Shown: piece by piece, positions 12,779 to 21,965 of the stretch
Position numbering within the stretch: the stretch's first letter is position 1
How the letters are laid out: each line of letters starts with the position of its first letter
Assembly: GCA_030550555.1 (NCBI GenBank)
Contig: JAUQPD010000034.1
Coordinates: 1-41,728, forward strand
DNA length: 41,728 nt
Direction of reading: 5' to 3'
Source of the DNA: Thermodesulfobacteriota bacterium
GTDB taxonomy: Bacteria > Desulfobacterota > Thermodesulfobacteria > Thermodesulfobacteriales > Thermodesulfobacteriaceae
Notes under the pieces: generated by a model
What the model was told of the DNA's origin: nothing
What the model saw: only the letters and a program-made list of their open reading frames with translations
Database searches by the model: none
Program-made: the position numbers and the translations under genes

Positions 12779-14128
12779 ATGGCTAAAAGGAAGGTCAGTT
12801 ATCTAATCTCATTGCCTGTGATTTTTATTATGGGTTCTGCCTTTTTCAATTCATCTCCTGTTCATACTGAGACCAAAGGTGGCCCAATGCATCCCCTCTG
12901 TCAAAATTGTCATAGCCCAACTCCAAACGTAATTAGAGGACCCCTTGATTCTGTATCATTTAAAGCCCAAATAATCACAATAGATGTGGGAACTCATAAA
13001 GAAGCGATCAGGTTTGATGAAACAACGAAAGTCAAAAATATGAAGGACCTGGAAGATCTCAGAAATTTTAGAGGTCGTGGATTCATGGTATTCTACGAAA
13101 TGAGAAATGGAACAAAACATGCTCTACAAATTACTCGTTTTGATGTTCTTAAATTAATAAAACCTGAAGACAGAGTCACAAAAGAGGACCTAAAAAAGAT
13201 CATTCAAGAAAGAAAAGATGTTGTCATTTTTGATTCCAGACCACTTCCAGCCTATCAAGAAGCTCACATACCCGGTGCCAAACCTCTTCCTGCCCCTGCT
13301 TTCGATCAACTAAAGAACAACCTGCCACATGATAAGAACACTCCAATTATTTATTACTGCGTGGGCGGGTGTCTTAGCCCCACAAATTACCTTAGGACAA
13401 AAGCCCTAGGCTACAGAAACGTCAAAGTTTACTTCGGTGGCTTCCCTGACTGGAGTCAAACAGAATACAGCATTACAACTCCTCAATGGCTTAAAAGGGC
13501 AATTGATGAACAATTTTCATATGTCCTCATTGATCTTAGGCCCAGAGAAAAGGCAAAAGAAGGATATATCCCTACTGCTGTAAACATTCCTTTTTCAGAA
13601 TTAGACAAAGCCAAAGAACAATTCCCTAGACAAAGACGAGCACCAATTATTCTCTACGGTCCAAACAAAGAAGAAGCAGCAAAGAAAATTATCTCCTGGG
13701 GTTATAGAAACGTTAGAATTCTACCCATCGAATTTGAAGAATGGAAAAACCAGGGACTTCCTGTCGCTAAAGGCGAAATATCGACAAAAATTACCTATGT
13801 CCCCAAAGCAAGACCTGGCACAATCCTTCCCGAAGACTTCATTAGAATTATCAACGATCCACCAGCTAATGTGCTAATAATAGATGTCAGAAATCCCGAC
13901 GAAACCAAAGAGGGTATAGTTAAAGGGGCTAAAAATATTCCTCTCGATGAACTTGAACATCGTATTGCAGAGATACCAAAGGATAGAGATATCATCATAT
14001 ATTGCGAAACCGGTATAAGAGCAGGTATGGCTCATGACATTCTTAAAAAATATGGAATAAACTCTAGATATCTAGAAGCTAGAATTCAAATTACGAAAGA
14101 CGGCAAAGTTACAATAGAATCTGACTAA
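12779..14128 (+). CDS. Exported haem-binding protein with three rhodanese domains
   Basis: A 449-residue exported protein. Residues 1-30 are a signal peptide (basic start, hydrophobic core); C41-x2-C44-H45 is a single c-type haem motif; 55-125 is a small beta-rich region I do not recognise. Rhodanese-like repeats follow at about 132-230, 235-332 and 347-435. Repeat 1 keeps a cysteine in the active loop (C194, with C198), repeat 3 has C409 in the loop CETGIRA, while repeat 2 has Gly where the cysteine belongs (ILYGPNKEE), so it is probably structural. Rhodaneses carry sulfane sulfur as a persulfide; joined to a haem in the periplasm this suggests handling of polysulfide or thiosulfate. I chose ATG 12779, behind AAGGAGGTG, not TTG 12761. 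It faces qmoC across a shared terminator. Confidence 0.82.
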   Translation: MAKRKVSYLISLPVIFIMGSAFFNSSPVHTETKGGPMHPLCQNCHSPTPNVIRGPLDSVSFKAQIITIDVGTHKEAIRFDETTKVKNMKDLEDLRNFRGRGFMVFYEMRNGTKHALQITRFDVLKLIKPEDRVTKEDLKKIIQERKDVVIFDSRPLPAYQEAHIPGAKPLPAPAFDQLKNNLPHDKNTPIIYYCVGGCLSPTNYLRTKALGYRNVKVYFGGFPDWSQTEYSITTPQWLKRAIDEQFSYVLIDLRPREKAKEGYIPTAVNIPFSELDKAKEQFPRQRRAPIILYGPNKEEAAKKIISWGYRNVRILPIEFEEWKNQGLPVAKGEISTKITYVPKARPGTILPEDFIRIINDPPANVLIIDVRNPDETKEGIVKGAKNIPLDELEHRIAEIPKDRDIIIYCETGIRAGMAHDILKKYGINSRYLEARIQITKDGKVTIESD

Positions 14129-14131
14129 ATA

Positions 14132-14163
14132 AATAAGGGGGGGGAGAATACCCCCCTCTTATT
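14132..14163. terminator. Bidirectional rho-independent terminator
   Basis: A stem with AATAAG followed by a run of G on the left and CCCCCC-TCTTATT on the right, loop AGAATA, with one mismatch or bulge. It lies 4 bases after the rhodanese stop and about 35 bases after the qmoC stop (reading minus), so it serves both converging units. T-rich tracts are modest on the plus side; an A10 run at 14171-14180 supplies the U tract for minus-strand readthrough only before the stem. Confidence 0.7.
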
Positions 14164-14198: not shown

Positions 14199-15407
14199 TT
14201 AAGAAAGATCACTTGATTTAAGTTTTCTTTGAATGTCCTTGTAGTAAAGATCAAACACCACAGCAGTAGTTCTGAAGACGAGGTGTGAAAATTTTGAATA
14301 GGGGATTGCTAAAAATAGTAAAAAAACAGTGATTAAGTGGATCATATAGATGACGCCTGTTAAATTAAATAAAAATGGGATTGATCTAAAAATAACAATA
14401 GCAAATCCTGTAATACCTACAAAAAGAATTAGCCAAAGTAGGAACCTATCAGGATATGATGTCTTTAAAGAGTTTTGAAGTTCAGCTTTATTTCTGCCGG
14501 AAATTAAGCCTATAATTCCATATAATAGAAGAATACCTCCGATATAGCCTAACCATTTGACAGGATGAGTTAGAGGATTCCATGGGGTATGCATACCAAC
14601 TATATCAGCAAGAATAAAGACAGTACCTGTGGTGATGAAGAGAATAATAAATCCAAAGACTAGCATCTTATGAGGGTTGGCTCTCCAAGAATTTGATCCA
14701 CATTTCTCAAATCTTGAGTGGTTTATGATCTCCTTAAGTGCGGGAATAAGATAGGATGAAATTATTTTCCCATAGCTATATCTGTAAGCCTGTGGGATAT
14801 TATAGTAATCAAGATAGGTCTTCCACATCTTACTTACTGCATTTGCCATGACAACAATCACAAAACCTGCGAGTGAGAGAAATACAATATCAATCATTAC
14901 AACCCTTGCAGGGAGCTTCAAGAACCCAATTTTATAGTAGATATCGCTATAGGGAAATGACTTAGCGTCAAAGAAATTAGGCACTCCTTTAAATGTTAAG
15001 GCAGTAAAAATAAATAAAATTATAAAGGAAATCAACACAAGTATAGGCAGTCCCCATGGTTGATTGTAGAAGGTGTTTAAAAACTTGAAAGGAACCAGCT
15101 CTTTTGTAACCATAAGTCTGAGGGATGCAAAAACGTCTCCTGGCCTCGCGTTTCTAGGACAATATCTCGTGCAGTCACCACATTGATGACAAAGCCATAT
15201 GCTGGGGTCTGAAAGTAATTTTTCTCTAAATCCCCATTGAGCTAGGATCATCTGCTTCCTTGGAAATGGCGCTTCATCAGGGGAGAGAGGACAGACACTT
15301 GAACAAGTTGCACATTGATAACACCTTTTTACAGTTTCTCCCCCTACTGACTGTATCTCTTTGACTGCACTGAGATCTGCATCCACCTTTAAGACTTGTT
15401 CTCCCAT
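14199..15407 (-). CDS. qmoC: Quinone-interacting oxidoreductase subunit QmoC
   Basis: QmoC is the membrane subunit that takes electrons from menaquinol and passes them to QmoAB for APS reduction. The N-terminal HdrC-like part has two four-cysteine motifs for [4Fe-4S] clusters: C29, C32, C35, C39 and C73, C76, C79, C83. From about residue 110 on there are some six hydrophobic helices resembling the cytochrome b of HdrE/NarI type, with histidines suited to haem b. Length 402 is normal for QmoC, which is a natural HdrC-HdrE fusion. It is the last gene of the block, 12 bases after qmoB, with an AAGGAGGAG ribosome site. Confidence 0.94.
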   Translation of the reverse strand: MGEQVLKVDADLSAVKEIQSVGGETVKRCYQCATCSSVCPLSPDEAPFPRKQMILAQWGFREKLLSDPSIWLCHQCGDCTRYCPRNARPGDVFASLRLMVTKELVPFKFLNTFYNQPWGLPILVLISFIILFIFTALTFKGVPNFFDAKSFPYSDIYYKIGFLKLPARVVMIDIVFLSLAGFVIVVMANAVSKMWKTYLDYYNIPQAYRYSYGKIISSYLIPALKEIINHSRFEKCGSNSWRANPHKMLVFGFIILFITTGTVFILADIVGMHTPWNPLTHPVKWLGYIGGILLLYGIIGLISGRNKAELQNSLKTSYPDRFLLWLILFVGITGFAIVIFRSIPFLFNLTGVIYMIHLITVFLLFLAIPYSKFSHLVFRTTAVVFDLYYKDIQRKLKSSDLS

Positions 15408-21608: not shown

Positions 21609-21965
21609 CTATTCCTCAATCTCAGGCGGTGGAAGAAATTCGGATTCTTTTGCAGCTAGCTCCTTTATCTCATTAATCCTAGCAAGCACAGCCCTTGCTA
21701 CATCTTCAGTCAGACTTTTCTGATTTGCAATCTCCTCAAATAGCGCCCTTCTAAAAGCTACAGGAGTATCAGTTATGCAAGCACGTGAATCTATTCTTGC
21801 TGTTTCAAAAGCCTTAAGGATCTCGTTTTTGACATCCTCACCAACCTTTAATCTTAAAACCTTGAGCTCTCCTCCAAACACAGCCTCGATATTTGCCTCA
21901 ACTGGTGTTCCCTTAATCTTGCTCAATCTGTAATCATCAAGGAAAATTTCAAGTATATATTCCAT
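21609..21965 (-). CDS. Conserved-position small protein between sat and aprB
   Basis: An acidic soluble protein of 118 residues without transmembrane segments, signal peptide or cysteine pairs (one Cys). Mixed beta (1-45) and alpha (46-108) pattern; the end is a short Pro/Glu tail. It starts at ATG 21965 behind TGAGGAGGTG, 30 bases after the sat stop. I do not recognise a domain. As I recall, Archaeoglobus fulgidus also has a small unknown gene (AF1668) between sat and aprB; whether the two are homologous cannot be checked here, but the shared position suggests a role linked to APS formation, transfer or reductase assembly. The ribosome site and lack of lesions make it a real gene. Confidence 0.85.
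   Translation of the reverse strand: MEYILEIFLDDYRLSKIKGTPVEANIEAVFGGELKVLRLKVGEDVKNEILKAFETARIDSRACITDTPVAFRRALFEEIANQKSLTEDVARAVLARINEIKELAAKESEFLPPPEIEE

Follow-up and report, generated by a model that had tools for sequence, protein, structure and literature searches.

Sud, the polysulfide-sulfur transferase of Wolinella, is a rhodanese thought to pass sulfane sulfur to polysulfide reductase, and SbdP of Aquifex, a rhodanese attributed to work by Aussignargues in 2012, is reportedly thought to pass it to a sulfur/polysulfide reductase. To our knowledge, both proteins have few domains and carry neither a haem nor an OB domain or selenocysteine (Sec). Haem c is coupled to sulfane-sulfur chemistry in SoxXA, TsdA, and flavocytochrome c sulfide dehydrogenase. 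As far as we know, these proteins contain no rhodanese domains and have unrelated folds.

An exported three-rhodanese sulfurtransferase, RS06465, belongs to the Psr operon of Desulfurivibrio dismutans, which is strongly upregulated during sulfur disproportionation, and has been proposed to take sulfur outside the membrane (Sorokin et al. 2025, PMC12142623). The authors call it a lipoprotein and, in the sections consulted here, mention neither haem nor selenocysteine. In D. alkaliphilus, high expression has been reported for a rhodanese-molybdopterin-Psr operon, again with no mention of haem in the consulted sections (Thorup et al. 2017, PMC5516251). Periplasmic rhodaneses were also highly expressed in a study of cable bacteria (PMC13047784), and SseA-type rhodaneses were found to be uninformative for disproportionation in a 2026 survey (PMC12998232). 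In Geobacter sulfurreducens, the exported rhodanese ExtH, a lipoprotein, is encoded in an electron-transfer gene cluster (PMC6148476).

In this study, we analyzed a gene located on a 41,728-nucleotide stretch of contig JAUQPD010000034.1 from a Thermodesulfobacteriota bacterium (GCA_030550555.1). This stretch is referred to as the window. It bears on how sulfate reducers and disproportionators handle sulfur, polysulfide, and thiosulfate outside the membrane. Compared by description only, RS06465 resembles the family to which this gene belongs in being exported, in having three rhodanese domains, and in being encoded with PsrABC.

Domain architecture of the window protein

The gene spans positions 12779 to 14128 of the forward strand, starts with ATG just downstream of an AGGAGG sequence, and encodes a protein of 449 amino acids. 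Its N-terminus is basic, then hydrophobic, as in a signal peptide (residues about 1 to 30, positions 12779 to 12868), lacks a lipobox, and shows low pLDDT at residues 1 to 27. The only CXXCH of the protein, the putative haem c attachment motif CQNCH, follows at residues 41 to 45 (12899 to 12913). Pfam PF00581 matched three stretches with 155.7 bits (cut-off 22.2, E=5.2e-46). Rhodanese domain 1 (13181 to 13459) carries the loop YYCVGGCLSP, with Cys194 encoded at 13358 to 13360 and Cys198 at 13370 to 13372. Domain 2 (13478 to 13750) has the loop LYGPNKEE and thus no catalytic cysteine, and domain 3 (13829 to 14074) has YCETGIRAG, with Cys409 at the start of its CETGIR loop (14003 to 14005). Both sequence and Pfam therefore agree with the initial annotation, which had proposed a signal peptide, a single CxxCH, and three rhodaneses, of which only the first and third have an active cysteine.

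An AlphaFold2 model built from 76 family sequences reached a mean pLDDT of 90.5, with disorder limited to the signal peptide. The stretch between the haem motif and domain 1 (residues about 51 to 121, 12929 to 13141), previously described as a beta-rich region of unknown type, is indeed beta-rich and, folded alone, was predicted to be an OB fold (pLDDT 89.9). Its best solved matches were CusF structures (Z of 8.1 to 8.6 over 66 to 71 residues), a fold match which carries no information on function. The N-terminal region had no convincing Pfam match. No Pfam cytochrome c domain was found for the window protein, nor any above cut-off for its N-terminal domain, which has the OB fold instead; the absence of a cytochrome fold among the matches listed for this domain is not evidence against one.

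No model for the whole protein exists among the curated Pfam and NCBIfam entries. The nearest models, NF041203 for a rhodanese-related (seleno)protein (66.3 bits for the window protein and 48.8 to 70.6 for relatives, cut-off 115) and NF045694 for TsoB (57.8 and 45 to 72 bits, cut-off 805), match domain 1 and place Sec similarly (UxxxxU, CxU). However, they comprise other domains and no haem, and all family members tested scored far below the cut-offs. The multi-rhodanese chains retrieved by fold, YnjE with its three rhodanese domains and EanB, have neither haem nor an OB domain.

Extent of the family and Sec/Cys exchange

Used alone as a query against genome contigs, the window protein retrieved no relatives, and an alignment of the family had to be used instead. 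By profile search, members were found in 42 of 395 genomes belonging to the phylum. A family pattern run over 84,980 species genomes yielded 203 relatives, of which the best 80 were kept. The 108 collected rows come from Desulfobacterota, Nitrospirota, Betaproteobacteria (Rubrivivax, Burkholderiales), and Geobacteraceae.

The initial annotation regarded the domain 1 cysteine as active. A cysteine is present there, but the annotation missed that relatives carry a pair at this site, whose place is occupied by CVGGC in the window protein. It also missed that most relatives are selenoproteins. The pair is Cys-x4-Sec, with Sec encoded by UGA, in 78 of the 108 rows and Cys-x4-Cys in 27, whereas the window protein has Cys-x3-Cys and its two sister orthologues have Asp-x3-Cys, with Asp replacing Cys194. 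In the window clade, the loop between the paired residues is one residue shorter (two by MAFFT placement). The reading of UGA as Sec is based on its conserved alignment with Cys and on the presence of SelB and tRNA-Sec, both of which occur in the window genome (G000) and in every UGA-bearing relative examined (G001, G002, G004, G006, G011, and G013). At least 12 switches between Sec and Cys were counted on the family tree, and this repeated switching points to a chalcogen site in domain 1. The domain 3 cysteine is invariant.

The Sec site of the family reads U-V-L-S (UxxS). Rhodanese-like selenoprotein form 1 (WP_010941598.1) of a selenoproteome review has the same UxxS pattern and may include Sec members of this family (PMC13188914). 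The review lists it as a predicted selenoprotein and gives no haem, number of domains, or partner for it; it was set beside the family by description only. Since its motif fits, the selenocysteine may be partly known already.

On the tree, the window clade is sister (support 85) to a clade with CX4CH from Thermodesulfobacterium, G001, and Thermodesulfovibrio-like genomes. The congeners G002 and G004 encode orthologues of the window protein with CKSCH and Cys (51 to 53% identity), in addition to haem-less UGA paralogues, while G001, G006, and Thermodesulfobacterium-type genomes have a version with CX4CH and UGA. The predominant residue in the family is Sec, and we read the window protein as a Cys variant that is probably derived and has a shorter loop.

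The window genome also harbors a paralogue that had gone unnoticed (G000:C52:49889-51076; L039, 5797 to 7113), with three rhodaneses, one in-frame UGA, and no haem motif, at 32% identity to the window protein over the whole length. Its active site reads YCGGVT-UGA-PFSP, and it is likely annotated as two truncated open reading frames. Truncation at UGA can be expected often for Sec members of this family in automatic annotation. Two further features were noticed among relatives. Desulfarculaceae-type sequences (L081 to L084, L087, L112, L117, and others) have a conserved C-terminal CCYK or CCFK and with it an additional pair of vicinal cysteines that the window protein lacks. The G006 copy (L045, 115 to 1439) contains an apparent frameshift near the domain 1 active site, due to sequencing error or decay.

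Conservation of the haem motif

Of the 108 rows, 83 have the haem motif as CXXCH and 9 as CX4CH. The 16 that lack it form one clade, which includes the paralogue of the window genome. Its conservation in 92 of 108 rows is, by this alignment, beyond chance, although the haem-bearing fraction is possibly too high because the scan used one domain-3 pattern and retained those relatives that best matched a query with the haem motif. Both cysteines and the histidine are kept in all 92 of the motif-bearing rows. A conserved distal (second axial) ligand was sought across the family, and none was found; a five-coordinate haem is also possible. The window genome encodes the haem c maturation protein ResB (E=3.6e-61), and we infer that the exported window protein carries covalently bound haem c.

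The haem-less clade retains the rhodanese part, which argues that haem is dispensable for core activity. It also retains the Cys/Sec pair, so haem and pair vary independently and other reductants can serve.

Judged from sequence, the arrangement of a haem motif, an OB fold, a Cys/Sec-bearing domain 1, a Cys-less domain 2, and a Cys-bearing domain 3 is conserved across several phyla. This upholds the earlier idea of a haem site joined to sulfane-sulfur carriers as a conserved architecture.

Gene neighborhood

Of 100 family loci, 13 have a Psr/Phs-like molybdenum (molybdopterin) oxidoreductase close by, against about 0.4 expected from the PsrA density of 13 relatives, where 7 copies occur in about 21.5 Mb. 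The excess has a P of about 1e-15 if loci are taken as independent; the true probability is larger because family loci are related, yet the association still spans four lineages, namely, Desulfuromonadales/Geobacteraceae, Nitrospirota, Betaproteobacteria, and genome G388. In loci L173 to L176, the last three assigned to Desulfuromonadales by tree and gene order, the rough order is a DUF3373 porin-like protein, a small protein, the haem-rhodanese, a PsrA-like TAT protein, and an NrfD-type membrane subunit, followed by an Fe-S subunit in several loci of this type. L173 has a multihaem cytochrome after the rhodanese in place of the small protein. In Thermodesulfovibrio-like loci, genes for a multihaem cytochrome and cytochrome bc intervene. 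In three loci from Thermodesulfovibrio-like genomes (L153, 5214 to 5684; L169, 5226 to 5696; L170, 5354 to 5896), the triple-rhodanese gene adjoins one for a divergent rhodanese that has a single domain and an N-terminus resembling a signal peptide. Sigma-54 regulators and sensor kinases, the first signal of neighbor clustering, were set aside as large generic families.

Most loci, including that of the window gene, have no adjoining Psr gene. A separate contig of the window genome carries a PsrABC-like operon (G000:C47; L200, 8994 to 13111). A multihaem cytochrome with nine CXXCH motifs is encoded at 1538 to 2800 of the same locus, some 6 kb upstream of the operon. Within the family, this type of PsrA was present in seven of nine genomes with the haem rhodanese and in none of four without (P = 0.02); the two exceptions with haem rhodanese and without this PsrA are G001 and G006.

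Downstream, the window gene is convergent with qmoC (14199 to 15407, reverse strand), as had been indicated by its description as facing the qmo genes. The 70-bp gap holds a strong hairpin (14132 to 14163, no strand assigned; −22.6 kcal/mol, z of −3.9), a possible two-way terminator. This gene order is shared by G002 and G004 but absent from G001 and G006. Restricted to three congeners, the adjacency is a local feature, and a special tie to qmo was rejected. Elsewhere in the window, a 118-amino-acid open reading frame of no evident function lies between aprB-like and sat-like genes (21609 to 21965, reverse strand).

Host range and sulfur metabolism

Hosts of the haem-triple-rhodanese protein are mostly sulfur-metabolizing. 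In the phylum sample, 28 of 36 carriers had dsrA, compared with 21 of 40 noncarriers (P = 0.03). Among Betaproteobacteria, 8 of 11 carriers had it, compared with 25 of the 97 related genomes (P = 0.003), shared ancestry being uncorrected in both comparisons. Carriers from Nitrospirota, Betaproteobacteria, and other groups had dsrA in 31 of 38 cases, and three of the seven dsrA-negative carriers outside the phylum sample (L139, L171, and L173) have a Psr-like gene adjoining the rhodanese. Mapping of hosts thus did not find the architecture to be common in organisms without sulfur metabolism. Together with the recurrence beside Psr/Phs-like oxidoreductases, these counts bear out the relevance to sulfur metabolism proposed in the initial annotation. 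Its more specific link to sulfur disproportionation was not supported, and a role as a disproportionation marker was rejected, since Thermodesulfobacterium sulfate reducers, Betaproteobacteria, and many others carry the gene.

Proposed role and alternative explanations

We favor, with a probability of about 0.55, an exported sulfane-sulfur relay, Sud-like in role, with its own haem electron link. In the periplasm, the protein would take up sulfane sulfur, donated by polysulfide or thiosulfate, in the form of a (seleno)persulfide, hand it between domains 1 and 3, and present it to an enzyme that handles sulfur there, typically a Psr/Phs-type molybdenum oxidoreductase, much as Sud does for the Psr of Wolinella. 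The haem would give or collect electrons one by one, for example, when release of sulfide from the persulfide closes the Cys-Sec or Cys-Cys pair, which then needs re-reduction. In the window organism, the likely partner would be the PsrABC-type operon on G000:C47. We infer export, haem attachment, the loading of both active rhodanese domains with sulfane sulfur, its delivery to a Psr-type enzyme, and electron exchange through the haem.

A bolder version, which we hold only tentatively, is that the protein is not a mere carrier but an oxidoreductase in periplasmic sulfur respiration, in which the Cys-Sec or Cys-Cys pair of domain 1 would be a redox site that frees sulfide from bound sulfane sulfur, or captures it, and trades the electrons through the haem c. 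With two neighboring chalcogens in domain 1, the second could resolve a persulfide on the first, so that sulfide is freed and the bond left behind needs electrons. On this hypothesis, the haem would have a purpose.

The haem itself might instead make and break S-S bonds, like that of SoxXA, TsdA, or flavocytochrome c sulfide dehydrogenase, oxidizing sulfide or thiosulfate to rhodanese-held sulfane sulfur. A single chain would then unite haem and sulfur-binding residues, the lack of a conserved distal ligand would allow an open site, the Cys/Sec pair could alternate between dithiol and disulfide, and the protein does occur in probable sulfur-oxidizing Betaproteobacteria with dsrA. We nevertheless consider this rather unlikely: there is only one haem, on a short N-terminal extension, with no conserved cysteine close to its motif and no flavin, and the recurrent neighbor in the loci, where Sox was covered only unsystematically, is Psr/Phs-like rather than Sox or Tsd. 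Gene order in some loci invites another comparison, as the DUF3373 porin-like neighbor resembles the layout of ExtHIJKL, of which ExtI affects selenite and tellurite reduction (PMC6148476). Rhodanese domains are versatile, and an ExtH-like sulfurtransferase could serve periplasmic detoxification or homeostasis (polysulfide excess, selenite, tellurite, or cyanide) outside energy metabolism. Such a function is unlikely, however, given a host range that tracks Dsr/Psr sulfur metabolism and a score of 16.5 bits with the NCBIfam ExtH model NF040901 (cut-off 200).

That the CXXCH is a structural or other metal site in a plain three-rhodanese sulfurtransferase would accord with the haem-less clade, with the resemblance of the N-terminal domain to the metallochaperone CusF, and with the absence of a standard cytochrome c domain. 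CXXCH and CX4CH are, however, both known haem c spacings. The motif varies between these two with its cysteines and histidine always kept, the weak PDB matches of the profile are nearly all c-type cytochromes, and the window organism has ResB and encodes multihaem cytochromes, which makes a site without haem very improbable. Least credible of all is an EanB-like enzyme that moves sulfur to a small molecule such as hercynine. This role in ergothioneine synthesis was considered for the fold match, EanB being second in the Foldseek list (TM 0.22). Single domains of ordinary rhodaneses match equally well, though, and the sequence profile gave 34 bits for EanB against 108 for 1yt8. Moreover, the protein is predicted to be exported, and its recurrent partner is a quinone-linked Psr-type operon.

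The domain architecture is real and conserved, its sulfur context is strong, and it is apparently undescribed, with no description found in the literature searched; it represents a variant on known rhodanese sulfur carriers. It adds a large family with repeated Sec/Cys exchange. As an exported relay with a haem link, the haem-rhodanese (seleno)protein would be a testable candidate for a carrier still missing from the path that links extracellular sulfur to the electron-transport chain.
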